From IMG/VR virus record IMGVR_UViG_3300030294_000017, positions 1 to 64,000 of that record: a stretch of DNA of 64,000 nt. The stretch is one strand, 5' to 3'. Each line of letters begins with the position of its first letter. Within the stretch, counting starts at the first letter, position 1. The notes beneath the pieces were generated by a model. The model had not been told where the DNA came from and ran no database searches. It saw only the letters and a program-made list of their open reading frames with translations. The position numbers and the translations under genes were made by a program. Positions 3,981 through 33,288 of the stretch are shown in pieces. This DNA is from a virus.

Positions 3981-4052
3981 CTGACATACATGGCGAACTG
4001 ACATACATATTAACTGACAGGTGACATGACAAACATGTCACCTGTCAGTTAA
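3980..4052. repeat. AACTGACATA repeat cluster, copy B, with 19-bp hairpin
   Basis: Three ACTGACA units follow the stop at 3980. The last forms the left arm of a perfect 19-bp inverted repeat, TTAACTGACAGGTGACATG at 4010-4028 and its complement at 4034-4052, with loop ACAAA. An A-run rather than a T-run follows, so it is not a standard terminator on this strand. It lies 25 nt upstream of promoter block B and could be an operator or an mRNA-end structure. Confidence 0.6.
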
Positions 4053-4077
4053 AAAATGTTAAAATTATGCTTTTTGT

Positions 4078-4145
4078 GTTAAGGTTTGTTAAGGTTTTAT
4101 GAATTGACATATATAATAACAAATTTGGCATGATTTTTGTAATAA
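4078..4145 (+). promoter_or_regulatory. Conserved promoter block, copy B, with sigma54-like core
   Basis: Second copy of the block at 1267-1334, with the same GTTAAGG pair, ATGAATTGACATATAT and ATAACAAA. The core TTGGCATGATTTTTGTA at 4125-4141 keeps the GG and G spacing of sigma54 promoters but departs from consensus at two positions, including the -12 C. It lies 34 nt before the ATG at 4175. Confidence 0.6.
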
Positions 4146-4174
4146 TTTTGGAAATAATTTAAAAAATAGAAATT

Positions 4175-4285
4175 ATGAAAACAGAAATCCTCTCAGCAGA
4201 AAATCTTTATAAAATTATTGGCGTTTTATTTGTAATTGGATGCTTATCGTTTTATTGGTTGCGTGTAATTCAGGAAATAATTTAA
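4175..4285 (+). CDS. Small single-membrane-span protein, 36 aa
   Basis: ATG at 4175 in TAGAAATTATG context directly behind promoter block B. The product has one hydrophobic segment (YKIIGVLFVIGCLSFYWL) between short polar ends (MKTEILSAEN, RVIQEII). Predicted inner-membrane miniprotein of unknown role. Confidence 0.55.
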   Translation: MKTEILSAENLYKIIGVLFVIGCLSFYWLRVIQEII

Positions 4286-15669: not shown

Positions 15670-15876
15670 GACCCGCCAAACACTCTGAAACATTAAGCGG
15701 CTGCTCTTTTTTGAGCATATGGGATTATGGTAGTATAACAGCCACAGAAGCTGTGAGTGGTTAGCAGAATCAAGATAAGATATCCGGATTTAAAATACAC
15801 TACCTCTTTGTGAACAATAAAAAGTAACTCAGAGGTTCTTTAAGGTGGTAGGCAATACATGTAACTTGCCATTTTT
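15670..15876 (+). other. Gene-free leader of the RNA island, weak hairpins
   Basis: No plausible CDS. Short foldable elements are present: GCTC TTTTTT GAGC, CACAG AAG CTGTG, ACCTCT...AGAGGT and GGCAA...TTGCC just before the tRNA. Less AT-rich than the flanking genes. I could not fold a second tRNA here; it may be leader transcript of the tRNA-tmRNA unit. Confidence 0.4.
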
Positions 15877-15950
15877 GCTCCCTTAGCTCAGTTGGTCAGA
15901 GCAAAACACTCATAATGTTGAGGTCATAGGTTCAAGTCCTGTAGGGAGCA
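15877..15950 (+). tRNA. tRNA with CAU anticodon (Met elongator or Ile2)
   Basis: 74 nt. Acceptor GCTCCCT/AGGGAGC, D-arm GCTC...GAGC with GGTC loop, anticodon loop CTCATAA (CAU), T-arm ATAGG TTCAAGT CCTGT, discriminator A. The 27-43 pair is an A-G mismatch, other pairs are intact. The G1-C72 pair argues against initiator tRNA. Met elongator and lysidine-modified Ile(CAU) cannot be told apart here. CCA is not encoded. Confidence 0.88.
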
Positions 15951-15962
15951 CAGACTGTTTAT

Positions 15963-17509: not shown

Positions 17510-18217
17510 ATGGATAAAGTTACTGAAAACATTCCAAAGAAAGGTGAAATTGTTAGCAACCCCGCTAAATGGACATCTAGAGAGAAGAAACATTGCAAGA
17601 TCAGTTGGACTGAAAAGCTAAATGTAGGAACTAAAGCGGAGAAGGAAATACAACATTCATTAATACCAAAAGAATGGTGTAAACTAGTTACAAAAGGATT
17701 GCCTATTTTTAAAAATGGTTTGGGGATTATTGTTGTTCACGCTGAATATGCCTTTAAGGAATACATGTCGGGTGGGTCATTCGAGGAATCAATCGAAAAG
17801 GTAAAAATTTATGCTGATAATGTAAGGAAATCTTACATGGAGCAAGTAAGGAAATTCAGGCTTGAAACATTTATTAAGATTTGTGAGCAACACTACAATA
17901 ACAATAACCTTGAAATAACTGTTGAAGAACTCAAGCTTTACCAATTTACCGATTTGGAAATAGATGTATTCACAAAGCATTTATCTGAAAATGGGGTTAT
18001 TGATATTTCAGAGATAGACGGTAAAAAGATGTATATGCTTAAACAGCTTGATGCAATTGATAATGAACTTGATGGAAGTCAACCCGAAATGATGGATGAT
18101 AAAATTATAGATGAAGTGTCACAGCCTATCATAGTTGATAATGAGTCAAATGGAAGTCAACCCGAAATGATGGATGATAAAATGATGGATGAAGTGTCGC
18201 AGTCTGTAGTAATTTAA
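17510..18217 (+). CDS. Hypothetical protein with duplicated C-terminal segment, 235 aa
   Basis: The N-terminal two thirds are basic and helical (SFEESIEKVKIYADNVRKSYMEQVRKFRLETFIKICEQHY). The acidic C-terminus consists of two tandem copies of a 26-residue unit (GSQPEMMDDKIIDEVSQP), encoded by a 78-nt direct repeat. The 9-nt gap to the SEC-C gene suggests cotranscription. Function unknown. Confidence 0.65.
   Translation: MDKVTENIPKKGEIVSNPAKWTSREKKHCKISWTEKLNVGTKAEKEIQHSLIPKEWCKLVTKGLPIFKNGLGIIVVHAEYAFKEYMSGGSFEESIEKVKIYADNVRKSYMEQVRKFRLETFIKICEQHYNNNNLEITVEELKLYQFTDLEIDVFTKHLSENGVIDISEIDGKKMYMLKQLDAIDNELDGSQPEMMDDKIIDEVSQPIIVDNESNGSQPEMMDDKMMDEVSQSVVI
18072..18202 (+). repeat. 78-nt in-frame tandem duplication
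   Basis: ATGGAAGTCAACCCGAAATG... at 18072 recurs at 18150 with only a few substitutions over at least 53 nt, giving two GSQPEMMDDK units. High DNA identity indicates recent duplication. Confidence 0.85.
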
Positions 18218-18231
18218 TAATGATTTATATA

Positions 18232-19268: not shown

Positions 19269-19305
19269 ATAAGATTAACGTTGTTGTGCTTCTATATAAA
19301 GATGT

Positions 19306-20070
19306 ATGGTAACATTAAATTTGGTTCACGGCTGTGATATAGATTCCTGTGATCTATACAAAACAGGGTTCTGCTATGTAAAAACCAAATTCTCCAATAA
19401 AAATTTCCTAAAAAACGACTTTCTAAAGCCTAAATATTATCCCGAATATTGGGATAAATTACCAAAAAGACCCGATATTTATATATGTTCAATTATGGGT
19501 GATATGTTAAGTAGTACTATAACTGACCTAAATCTTATAGACATACTTGAACATATAGAAAGAAGACCACACGATGTATTTTTCTTGCAATCAAAGAACC
19601 CAATAAGGTATTTTAAGTTTTTGAAAGAATGTTGGATAAAGGAAATACCCAAGAACATTTATTTTGGAACTTCTGTTGAAAATAATAATTATAACTGCAG
19701 AATAAAAGATTTATCCAAACTTAAATTTTTAAATAAATCAATTCATCTTTGGTTAGAAATCGAACCTATCATGGGTGATTGTTCCAAACTTGATCTTTCA
19801 CTTATGGAATATATAACAGTTTCAACTATAGGGTTTGATCAAACTTATAGATCAACTATTGATAACCATATATTGAGCATAGGTGAGCTATATAAAGATG
19901 AATGGATAGAATCATTATATGAAAACCAAACGGTAAATAAAAATATACTTAGATTTTATAGCAATGTACTTGAACTGACACATTCATATAAAATATTGAA
20001 ACATCCAAATTTTGATGTATATAAAATTTTGTATAAATTGGATAATAAACAAGTTAATTCTTTATTTTAA
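19306..20070 (+). CDS. DUF5131 (Gp37/Gp68)-like protein, radical-SAM related
   Basis: 254 aa. The order of blocks follows DUF5131: a Cys-bearing start (HGCDIDSCDLYKTGFCYVK), PDIYICSIMGDMLSSTI (usually NSMSDLFH), DVFFLQSKNPIRYFKF (usually TKRPER), KNIYFGTSVENNN and IHLWLEIEPIMGD (usually FLSIEPLLG). Cys spacing in the first block departs from the usual C-x-C arrangement, so cluster binding is uncertain. DUF5131 proteins are widespread in phages; their substrate is not established. Confidence 0.75.
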   Translation: MVTLNLVHGCDIDSCDLYKTGFCYVKTKFSNKNFLKNDFLKPKYYPEYWDKLPKRPDIYICSIMGDMLSSTITDLNLIDILEHIERRPHDVFFLQSKNPIRYFKFLKECWIKEIPKNIYFGTSVENNNYNCRIKDLSKLKFLNKSIHLWLEIEPIMGDCSKLDLSLMEYITVSTIGFDQTYRSTIDNHILSIGELYKDEWIESLYENQTVNKNILRFYSNVLELTHSYKILKHPNFDVYKILYKLDNKQVNSLF

Positions 20071-20450
20071 TGGGTAAAAAGAATGAAAGTCCTGTTATTG
20101 TCGGCAGGATAGCTTACGAACGTTATAGAGTTATAGAAACTGAAAATGGTATTATAAGGCAAGGTATGGGCTTAAGCGGTAAAATTGAGGCAATAATAGT
20201 ACATATCACAGGTGGTATACATGTCAGATTTTCTACAGATGTTGCAGCTAATACTGTTCCAATAGAATGGGTTACCACAGATGAAAAAATGTCCAAAATT
20301 GATATAACTATGCTTGAAAGTATTAAAATACTTTCAAGGCAAACAAAACATGTATTATGTAATTCAAAGATAAGAGTTAATAGAAAAATGTTCTCGGAAA
20401 AATTAGAATTCTTAGCAAAACAAAGAAAGCAATATGCAAACAGAAACTAA
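20070..20450 (+). CDS. Hypothetical protein, 126 aa
   Basis: Overlaps the previous stop (TAATG) and the following gene by 17 nt. Beta-rich centre (GRIAYERYRVIETENGIIRQGMGLSGKIEAIIVHITGGIHVRFS) and basic helical tail. No domain recognised. Confidence 0.65.
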   Translation: MGKKNESPVIVGRIAYERYRVIETENGIIRQGMGLSGKIEAIIVHITGGIHVRFSTDVAANTVPIEWVTTDEKMSKIDITMLESIKILSRQTKHVLCNSKIRVNRKMFSEKLEFLAKQRKQYANRN

Positions 20451-20964
20451 AGTAGCACATTTAAGAAATATTTTAACCCCAATAAAAAACTATTTCTCAA
20501 TGTTGAAAGCCGATAAAAATAATCAGGTAATTAGTACTTTGCTGCTTGATAAAGAAGCTGACAATTGTATTAAAGTTCTACCTGAGATATTGGAACTTAT
20601 GGATAAATTACCACCCCATTATCTTGGATTTTTTGAATATCCACAATACTGTAATACATGTGATTATTTCAGTAAAGATGTCAAGAAATGTAAAAAATGT
20701 GCTTCATCGGGTTTAGAAAAAAGAACTAATCACAGCGATAACTATTGGAACGGTGTTATTGTTGATGCAAGAATTGTTAGTGATACCACATTTGCAACAA
20801 GATTACATGGTTTTCTATCAGATGTGGAAACCAATGATTGTATATCATGTGAAGAGCTTGAATATCTGAAAACGATTTCTGAAAAACTATTGAAATTCCA
20901 ACAAATGACAGCATCTGATGAAAAGGAAATTGAATACCTCAATACAACAAAAAAAGGCTTATAA
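20434..20964 (+). CDS. Hypothetical protein with Cys-rich site, 176 aa
   Basis: The central CNTCDYFSKDVKKCKKCASSGL looks like a four-Cys zinc site, followed by NHSDNYWNG. Flanked by helices. No family recognised. Confidence 0.65.
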   Translation: MQTETKVAHLRNILTPIKNYFSMLKADKNNQVISTLLLDKEADNCIKVLPEILELMDKLPPHYLGFFEYPQYCNTCDYFSKDVKKCKKCASSGLEKRTNHSDNYWNGVIVDARIVSDTTFATRLHGFLSDVETNDCISCEELEYLKTISEKLLKFQQMTASDEKEIEYLNTTKKGL

Positions 20965-21080
20965 TGTATTATGACTTTATGGGATATAAGGTTTTGCCTG
21001 TAATTTGGTTTTTTGAATATACAAATTGTTATATGATTATATACCTCATATTTCCTGAAAGAGTTCAGGTAATGATTTGA
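20964..21080 (+). CDS. Possible small hydrophobic protein, 38 aa
   Basis: ATG at 20964 shares a base with the preceding stop (TAATG). Product has a hydrophobic run (VLPVIWFFEYTNCYMIIYLIF). The coupled start is the main support; otherwise it is only the leader of the structured RNA. Confidence 0.4.
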   Translation: MYYDFMGYKVLPVIWFFEYTNCYMIIYLIFPERVQVMI

Positions 21081-21130
21081 AACCGTTTAATATTAACTAA
21101 TATAAAATAATGTTACGATTATAGATAAAT

Positions 21131-21396
21131 GATGGTGATTATTATTCGGCTTGGTGTTGTCGTTGTGGTAAATCCACAGACTTGACTATTAAATTAGGGC
21201 TGTCCCCTAATTCCGTTTCCAACCCGAAATCACCAAATCCGTTCCCGATATTCGGAGTCCATACAGGCATTTGGTAGAAATGCCATCAATACCTGACTTT
21301 GGACATCACAAGCAATCTGACCTACAACTCAGAGCATGCAACTATTGGGAACACTGATTCCGTGAAGATATAAGCCATCTTCACGGAATCTTCGTT
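21131..21396 (+). ncRNA. Multi-domain structured RNA of unknown class
   Basis: No CDS fits, and base composition is richer in G+C than neighbours. Domain 1: TGGTGATT (21133-21140) pairs with AATCACCA (21228-21235), continued by TTCGG/CCGAA and TTGG/CCAA, enclosing hairpins TGTGG TAAAT CCACA and AATTAGGG CTGTC CCCTAATT. Domain 2: GTTCCCGATA (21241-21250) pairs with TATTGGGAAC (21343-21352), enclosing GTCCA/TGGAC around GGCATTT GGTAG AAATGCC, and TCTGA/TCAGA. A strong terminator at 21356 ends it. The nested, mutually compatible stems strongly suggest a functional RNA of about 220 nt. I do not recognise the class. Confidence 0.7.
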
Positions 21397-21400
21397 TTAA
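21356..21400 (+). terminator. Intrinsic terminator after structured RNA
   Basis: Perfect 13-bp stem GATTCCGTGAAGA / TCTTCACGGAATC with a 9-nt loop, followed by TTCGTTTT. Confidence 0.85.
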
Positions 21401-21417
21401 ATAATTAAACAAATCAT

Positions 21418-21957
21418 ATGCAACCATTACAAATGATACAAGATTATAAATGCAGAATAAATTTGACAGACTATGATTTTGCCTGTCTTATGGTGGATGT
21501 TTATCCTATACTTTTAATTACAAAATTACAAAATAAAATAGATTTGGATGATTTGGATGATAAAGGTATAGAAACAAATCAACACATAACAGTAGTATAC
21601 GGAATTGATACTTATGTTGGACTTTCTAGGATGTTGACTATGATACCTAAAAATATTGGCACTTTAAAATTAGGAAAGATAAGTGTTTTCGAAAATGAAA
21701 AATATGATGTATTAAAAGTGTCAATTATACCATCTAATGAATTGTTGAAATTAAGATCAGATATAGTCAATAAATTACATGTTACATTAACATACCCAAA
21801 TTTTGAACCTCATATAACGCTAGCATATCTTAAAAAAGGAACTGCGGCAAAATATTTACTTAAATTTGGAAATATAGATTTAAGTAATGAGGTTGTTGTA
21901 TTTGATAAATATAATTATTCAGGCGGTAATTTAAATGAAACATTTATAAAGTTATAA
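21418..21957 (+). CDS. 2H phosphoesterase (Acb1/LigT type)
   Basis: 179 aa with the two H-x-T/S-x motifs of the 2H superfamily: HITVVYG (H56, T58) and PHITLAYLKKG (H132, T134), about 75 residues apart, with the intervening YDVLKVSI strand. The superfamily includes 2',3'-cyclic phosphodiesterases, RNA ligase-like LigT and phage Acb1 (T4 57B), which degrades the cyclic oligonucleotides of CBASS defence. The PHITLAYLKKG form is the one I associate with phage members, so an anti-CBASS role is plausible but unproven. Coupled to the next gene by TAATG. Confidence 0.8.
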   Translation: MQPLQMIQDYKCRINLTDYDFACLMVDVYPILLITKLQNKIDLDDLDDKGIETNQHITVVYGIDTYVGLSRMLTMIPKNIGTLKLGKISVFENEKYDVLKVSIIPSNELLKLRSDIVNKLHVTLTYPNFEPHITLAYLKKGTAAKYLLKFGNIDLSNEVVVFDKYNYSGGNLNETFIKL

Positions 21958-22679
21958 TGAAATTAATAGCCGAAACGTTGACCGATGAAATGATGATAAC
22001 ACCATATTCAACTATGGTATCTAGAAATCAAAAATGGTTTTACGATAATTACTTGACTGATCAGTCTAGTAAAAATTTACCCGAAAAGAAAGATAAAATA
22101 TTTTTAATTCCTGGTAAAATTTATACATTCGGATATAATCCAATAACCCCTGAGGAAAAATTACTTGCTCAATGCCCCGCTTTTTCATTCAGACCCATAA
22201 ATTTCATAATAGGTCAAAAATTTACAAAATCAGGTGATTTCAACCCTTACGGAATTAATCTTACATTCGTACCACCAAGGATAAGGATACAAATACTAGA
22301 CCAAATCATACGTGTGTTTGGCTCAGAGATAATAAATCCATCAATTAATCAAATGAAAGCTGGGAATCAACCAACTAGAACTTTACCCGTTAATTGGGAA
22401 ATGATGCAAAAAATGCTTGAAAATAGTGGATTTGAATATTGTATACGTTCATATAAATATTCGGCATTTACATCACCACCTCAAATTATTAGCTATGAAG
22501 ATTGGCATAGATTATGTACTTTTACAATTCCTTTTATAAAGACAGCCAACCTTCTCGGTATAAGGAGTGTATATATGTCATATTACGATAATCTTACGGG
22601 TGTAAAAAAAGCACCAAAAGATTTAAAAATAGCTGAACGCACTATAAAAGATATTAAATCTTATAAACACCTGTTCTAA
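21957..22679 (+). CDS. T4-like conserved phage protein, probable virion assembly factor
   Basis: 240 aa. The pattern FGYNPITPEEKLLAQCPAFSFRPINFI ... FNPYGINLTFVPPRIRIQILDQIIRVF recalls a family found in T4-like myoviruses (YYDxxPLVxPI ... GFLGLNLHYLPPxxRxxLLD), ending with CIRSYKYSAFT and ISYEDWHRLCTF. I do not know its exact T4 name. Coupled at both ends (TAATG). Confidence 0.55.
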   Translation: MKLIAETLTDEMMITPYSTMVSRNQKWFYDNYLTDQSSKNLPEKKDKIFLIPGKIYTFGYNPITPEEKLLAQCPAFSFRPINFIIGQKFTKSGDFNPYGINLTFVPPRIRIQILDQIIRVFGSEIINPSINQMKAGNQPTRTLPVNWEMMQKMLENSGFEYCIRSYKYSAFTSPPQIISYEDWHRLCTFTIPFIKTANLLGIRSVYMSYYDNLTGVKKAPKDLKIAERTIKDIKSYKHLF

Positions 22680-32780: not shown

Positions 32781-33288
32781 ACTGACATATATCATAATTA
32801 AGTTAAAAGATGTTAAAGATATTCAGACTTGGTATTGTTATCTCTGTATTAATAATTTTCAACTGACATAATAGTATATAATATATATCCCCCATATTGT
32901 CCATATATTTGACCTCTCTTACTATCTCTTTGAAACTTTTTGCCATATTCCTTGAACTCATTTCCTATCTCACTTACTGACATAACTTTAAAACTTTGAA
33001 TTCAAGGGAAAGCCTCTGAGATATGTCTGATATTTCTCGGCAAATTTGGAATATTTCTGAATATCTCTTGGATACCTTTGGTGGTTTTCAAATATAAATG
33101 ATAAACTGATAATTTGCCGAGAAATGGTAAACACTAACCTAGTAACGAAAGTGAATGGAATGGTCTTAATGAATTGACATAGGCTGCAGGATGTACCTAA
33201 TAAGTCGGAGGATATGGTTACTGTGGAGGCAAAAGCCCCTTGTAGGCTCAAGTCCTACAATTATCACATTTAAAAAATATTTGAGTAT
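32781..33288. other. Gene-free structured stretch before the methyltransferase
   Basis: No convincing CDS. It contains AACTGACATA units near 32781, 32871 and 32975. A perfect 15-bp inverted repeat, ATTTCTCGGCAAATT at 33032-33046 and its complement at 33111-33125, has a 64-nt interior. A T-arm-like hairpin TTGTAGG CTCAAGT CCTACAA lies at 33240-33260. Could hold one or two small RNAs and a promoter for the methyltransferase operon. Confidence 0.5.

Follow-up and report, generated by a model that had tools for sequence, protein, structure and literature searches.

A predicted two-domain structured RNA upstream of a 2H phosphoesterase operon in a T4-like phage

Structured phage RNAs and the phage studied here

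Bacteriophage T4 encodes species C and D, small stable non-coding RNAs within its tRNA cluster, and the structured RNAs GOLLD and ROOL are families of the Rfam collection. The RNA predicted here can be likened to species C and D as a small RNA of a T4-like phage, by description only. In the cited parts of two reports (PMC12286853, PMC7567579), GOLLD and ROOL are so-called ornate RNAs and share with the one predicted here that they are structured RNAs of phages; however, both are much larger than this RNA, which matches no Rfam family, and they frequently lie near tRNAs (PMC7567579), whereas this RNA lies ~5 kb from the phage's tRNA and tmRNA. An abundant non-coding RNA of Vibrio phage ICP1 is likewise a non-coding transcript of an ORF-less phage stretch, but it measures ~800 nt and was seen by RNA-seq (PMC7567579, in the part cited), while the predicted transcript here is ~270 nt and is known from sequence alone. 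A further comparison is cabRNA, a structured RNA of a staphylococcal phage that is sensed by bacterial cGAS; here, the neighbouring gene encodes an Acb1-like 2H enzyme. As described in the cited part of PMC10686824, cabRNA derives from terminase genes and triggers defence. No such RNA is described in the titles and abstract openings of the matches listed in the open-access literature. Orphan though it is, the predicted RNA falls within a known kind, the phage non-coding RNAs; it is neither a demonstrated new class nor a demonstrated sponge, two of the readings offered by the first-pass annotation.

The DNA analysed (the window, 64,000 nt) belongs to a virus record of 90,251 bases. Its gp23-like capsid protein, for which the nearest named phage is Flavobacterium phage MaF61 (35.5%), together with a gp2-like DNA end protector, identifies a T4-like phage, and its host very probably belongs to the Bacteroidota. 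Searches with gp2, the 2H protein and the MCP led to one sister species (loci L128 and L129; gp2 78%, 2H 56-57% and capsid 86% identical) and to far relatives (L147-L149 and MaF61). When four records were queried for the gp2 of these relatives, it was found in three; the fourth, L145, has a capsid identical to that of the window's record. No 2H gene was found in either L149's record or MaF61. Another record, L237, was found through a second RNA element (see below) and is the sister species again, with matching coordinates and identities; gp2 was not found in it.

Predicted fold of the 21131-21396 region

The first-pass annotation had described nested stems arranged in two domains and followed by a terminator, and plus-strand folding reproduced this arrangement exactly, with a mean pair probability of ~0.9 for the predicted fold of the 21133-21390 region. 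The features of the locus, in window coordinates, are as follows; the stems and hairpins of the two domains are those of the MFE structure.

21071-21119, plus strand: AT-rich promoter-like stretch, similar in the sister phage, ending in the TAATGTTACGAT box (21108-21119)
21133-21235, plus strand: domain 1 as a whole (z = -3.8 alone; 0 of 300 shuffles)
21133-21140/21228-21235, plus strand: domain 1 closing stem, 8 bp
21146-21149/21224-21227 and 21151-21154/21219-21222, plus strand: domain 1 inner stems, extending the closing stem
21159-21186 and 21192-21212, plus strand: domain 1 hairpins, enclosed by the long-range stem
21241-21352, plus strand: domain 2 as a whole (z = -5.0 alone; 0 of 300 shuffles)
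21241-21250/21343-21352, plus strand: domain 2 closing stem, 10 bp
21254-21307, plus strand: domain 2 long arm with a GAAA loop
21312-21339, plus strand: domain 2 short hairpin
21356-21397, plus strand: intrinsic terminator, a perfect 14-bp stem (21356-21369/21377-21390) with a 7-nt loop and a T-rich tail
21398-21409, plus strand: gene-start box TAAATAATTAAA, behind the terminator and 20 nt before the 2H start
21418-21957, plus strand: 2H phosphoesterase gene (2'-5' RNA ligase/Acb1-like; PF13563, PF23474), outside the RNA
21957-22679, plus strand: DNA end protector gp2-like gene (phrog_429, 1.7e-13), outside the RNA

The order of the stems had been judged improbable by chance, and the folding energy does lie far below that of dinucleotide shuffles, both for 21090-21417 with the terminator (z = -7.81; 0 of 100 shuffles as good) and for 21125-21354 without it (z = -5.11; 0 of 200). 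The terminator alone reaches z = -7.9 (0 of 300 shuffles), and none of 500 shuffles of the body formed two domains longer than 80 nt within 10% of the body energy. Of 261 windows of 230 nt sampled across this phage, none had z at or below -5.1 and seven had z at or below -4, values that are rough because each window was shuffled just 25 times. Fourteen gaps longer than 200 nt separate ATG ORFs of at least 60 aa, and two of the others outscore the RNA gap (40 shuffles per window): 74131-74330 (z = -9.2) and 3981-4180 (z = -7.9), each dominated by a single long hairpin. The minus strand of the region has a lower folding energy than the plus strand but a weaker z, at -76.6 kcal/mol without the terminator (z = -3.8; 1 of 200 shuffles as good) and -100.1 kcal/mol with it (z = -6.7; 0 of 200). 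We chose the plus strand because the T-run that follows the terminator is present on that strand only. The folding of one sequence is no proof of functional structure (PMC8250186, in the part cited), and by this standard the structure of the RNA at 21133-21390 is a prediction.

The region is richer in G+C than its surroundings (43%, versus 30% for the window). Duplication of one domain into the other was considered and rejected, as the two domains are unlike (275 of 500 shuffles as good). Direct repeats are lacking in 21100-21417, with a short AT-rich array found upstream only, at 21088-21115.

Two other structured stretches were noted. The hairpin at record position 74131-74330 (L140 10131-10330) sits between convergent genes and is probably a bidirectional terminator. 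An ORF-poor gap at window 32939-33288 is moderately structured (z about -4.3), and a stretch similar to the T-arm of a tRNA was spotted by eye near its 3' end; ARAGORN found no tRNA in it.

Homologue searches and the sister phage

The Rfam scan proposed by the first-pass annotation has been carried out, and no family of Rfam 15 matches the RNA. Over the whole window only the tRNA and tmRNA reach the gathering cut-off, and at E values up to 10 five snoRNA, scaRNA and miRNA models appear in 20950-21450, all below cut-off (E = 0.92 or worse). Four of the six records searched, the window's own included, carry the RNA with 100% identity over 311 nt, and no differing relative was among them. Distant blastn searches against phages and plasmids gave nothing, or four and five records at E = 0.9 or worse; a comparison with 129 loci gave, outside identical copies, only matches of E = 1 or worse. 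The two-part stem pattern, which is too loose, retrieved at least 120 stretches of viral contigs. A 16-mer occurs in 14 stretches of viral contigs, three of which are this phage, and a 17-mer in 64 stretches of genome contigs; for the other 75 k-mer stretches the best 20 alignments span at most 43 nt. We take the pattern hits to be this phage and chance matches.

We built a covariance model (CM R1) from two identical sequences. Across eight phage records, including the sister and the far relatives, it recovered one, itself; in 25 loci it gave one chance-like match (E = 0.033), and in five genomes none, a search graded uninformative. In 395 Bacteroidota genomes, with few candidates scored per genome, it matched once, to the terminator part alone. 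A DNA search of such a draw of genomes, again with few candidates per genome, gave one 28-nt match (93%) in a peptidase-like ORF, which we take as chance; the draw covers one phylum and is centred on a Flavobacteriia genome. The RNA also matches a helicase-like ORF of the same phage over 23 nt (91%); both ORF names were assigned by eye. This longest match runs in the sense orientation of the helicase-like ORF, and from the remaining matches, which are short, we took no antisense target.

The sister phage provides a positional counterpart with different content. In place of window 19279-21397 it has ~190 nt, and its slot is a 219-nt stretch without a listed ORF of 60 aa, shorter than that of the window phage, with a 12-bp terminator of its own; in both phages the terminator lies ~20-27 nt before the 2H start codon. 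The transcript parts of the two slots are dissimilar (345 of 1,000 shuffles as good). Upstream, 60 nt align locally with L128 at a score reached by 2 of 1,000 shuffles, although a comparison trimmed differently (56/65 nt) is not significant (206 of 1,000). The 64-kb window and the 16.7-kb locus L128 each contain a single exact copy of the box TAATGTTAC(G/A)AT; when mismatches are permitted, the TAATGTTACGAT box shows no enrichment. Similar upstream DNA combined with a dissimilar transcript part suggests that the slot was apparently kept while its content was replaced. The sister stretch folds better than chance with its terminator (z = -4.4; 0 of 200 shuffles), but its body on its own gains little over shuffling (z = -1.7, equalled in 20 of 300 shuffles), so an RNA gene there rests on the terminator, position and upstream similarity, and we propose it tentatively.

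Window 19279-21397 also includes a cassette of three ORFs (19306-20964) that the sister phage does not have. The first is a DUF5131 ORF with a weak rSAM_mob_pairA match far below cut-off, and two PADLOC candidate profiles matched the cassette.

Another unannotated element (15787-15872, plus strand; L128 4084-4169) lies directly before tRNA-Met and the tmRNA and is 84% identical in the sister, where a terminator-like hairpin stands directly 3' of its counterpart. RNAalifold, applied to the two sequences, gave 17 pairs, of which four are changed on both sides and none is broken, counts that come from a structure predicted on these same two sequences. The element has no Rfam match, and an exact 19-mer of it occurs in five viral-contig stretches, all from the window phage or its sister. 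As a conserved structure, it is better supported than the 21131-21396 RNA. The phage tmRNA (16079-16433, tag GKNTIKSLGNKVIAMISPRVVAFAA), accompanied by a tRNA-Met (15877-15951), is absent from the corresponding 16.7-kb sister locus, L128. Further along, an imperfect direct repeat of ~89 nt (83%) at 18057-18223 lies near the 3' end of ORF 17510-18217.

Flanking signals, coding potential and alternative readings

We consider it slightly better than an even prospect that the element is an autonomous, rapidly replaced accessory non-coding RNA of the phage that acts in trans. Transcription would start near 21110-21125, from the putative AT-rich phage promoter, and yield an RNA of ~270 nt with two independently closed three-way-junction domains. 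The transcript would end where a strong, constitutive terminator precedes the 2H operon, which would have its own start signal, and the domains and terminator hairpin would shield the RNA from RNases. Its action would be in trans, and its likeliest role would be that of a folded scaffold or decoy to which a protein or RNA of the host binds. A slot that is kept while its content is swapped between sister phages would fit a lineage-specific accessory factor under host pressure.

A rather unlikely alternative, in our estimate, is that the upstream operon finishes in this element as its structured 3' end. The cassette mRNA (19306-20964) would then run on and end in the element, which would terminate the mRNA and shield its 3' end, with free RNA, if there is any, arising by processing of the 3' UTR. 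The neighbouring genes share one strand, ORF 20434-20964 ends 168 nt before domain 1, and no sigma-70-type promoter was found in 20900-21500, against 3.4 expected; the lack of a recognisable promoter in front of the RNA keeps this alternative in play. However, the sister, which has no cassette, still has a terminator-ended gene-free slot with similar upstream DNA. Moreover, termination needs the last hairpin only, which leaves two more domains (z = -5.1) unexplained.

The first-pass annotation had placed the element directly before the 2H phosphoesterase operon, and the 2H start at 21418 bears this out; the 2H protein matches both PF13563 (6.3e-8) and the Acb1 family PF23474 (2.6e-7) above cut-off. 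The location directly upstream, with a terminator close before the start codon in both phages, would suit a cis-regulatory leader of the 2H-gp2 operon (a riboswitch, an attenuator or a processive antiterminator element), and an Ile/Val-rich 18-codon ORF within domain 1 (21129-21185, MMVIIIRLGVVVVVNPQT) could be a leader peptide, a chance ORF or a tiny hydrophobic peptide. The terminator, the sole terminator-like site in 20900-21500 (0.1 expected), does not behave accordingly: nothing upstream pairs strongly with its 5' arm, and keeping that arm open costs 0.8 kcal/mol, or 0.0 in the sister. When both phages were folded without the terminator's 3' arm, the 5' arm stayed almost unpaired and no antiterminator was found upstream; the terminator thus appears nearly independent of the upstream fold.

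The 2H gene also has its own start box past the terminator. With at most one mismatch, TAAATAATTAAA occurs 24 times on both strands of the 90-kb record (for example at 21398, 16526 and 36384), 15 of the copies lie 15-33 nt before an ORF start, and the sister carries the box 20 nt before its 2H gene. The box can be likened to the T4 late promoter, TATAAATA, and is a candidate, in this phage group, for a late-promoter-like signal or an element marking translation starts; a promoter there would make the 2H gene a separate unit. Aptamer conservation of the kind a riboswitch predicts is missing before the orthologous sister genes, CM R1 is silent in the sister's 167-kb record, and Rfam offers no match. 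With no antiterminator found in either phage and a separate start box for 2H, a leader or riboswitch of this operon is disfavoured: we regard a leader as improbable, and rank it behind a separate RNA gene. The RNA component of a type III toxin-antitoxin system was rejected, as there are no tandem repeats and the downstream genes are the 2H enzyme and then gp2 in both phages.

The description of the region as gene-free holds insofar as no ATG ORF of at least 60 aa lies in 20965-21417, but not for a 38-aa ORF at 20964-21080, which overlaps the stop of the preceding gene and could be a genuine small gene on the 5' side of the RNA. Translation of the element itself, which had been named as evidence that would count against an RNA, is opposed by codon usage, recoding and homologue searches alike. 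The codon usage of frame 21110-21373 (z = 1.3) and of the other plus frames (0.2 and 1.1) falls short of that of five other phage ORFs (2.5-6.7), and the minus-strand ORF is weakly positive (1.6). The two internal stops of the frame are both TAG, and it would be open if TAG encoded Gln. TAG seldom serves as a stop (1 of 92 ORFs); nevertheless, with TAG read as Gln it occurs in 12 of 139 non-overlapping ATG ORFs of at least 60 aa, only two of which exceed 100 aa, so recoding of TAG by the phage is unsupported. One of these 12 ORFs overlies the tRNA/tmRNA stretch. Searches with the frame reached no Pfam family at cut-off (the CxC1 match, E = 0.018, falls short of it) and no PHROGs family; phages gave no match, plasmids gave matches at chance level only, and the 42-aa minus-strand ORF matches no family. 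A protein-coding gene at 21110-21373 was rejected on its codon usage, which is not phage-like, the little sign of recoding and the lack of homologues.

These data bear also on incidental structure, in which the inverted repeats of a degenerate gene, or of a mobile fragment of foreign origin with a higher G+C content, would fold by chance or history. The G+C content unlike that of the phage, the absence from the sister, the presence of just two stops in frame 21110-21373 and the weak DNA matches (23 and 28 nt) that fall in this frame would agree with such an origin, but the codon usage and family searches speak against a gene remnant, the two-domain fold is lower in energy than shuffles of the same composition, and the terminator is intact. 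We assign this account a low probability, similar to that of the leader.

Returning to an autonomous RNA acting in trans, a more specific proposal is improbable: a new two-module class of phage RNA, serving as a counter-defence decoy or as a scaffold for an enzyme to bind, and housed in a replaceable "RNA cargo slot" next to an Acb1-like 2H phosphoesterase, with sister phages carrying different structured RNAs behind the same promoter. If transcribed, the element would give a T4-like, probably Bacteroidota, phage a stable orphan RNA in a slot whose content varies between sisters, and would point to an exchange of RNA accessory factors among phages much like their exchange of small accessory proteins.
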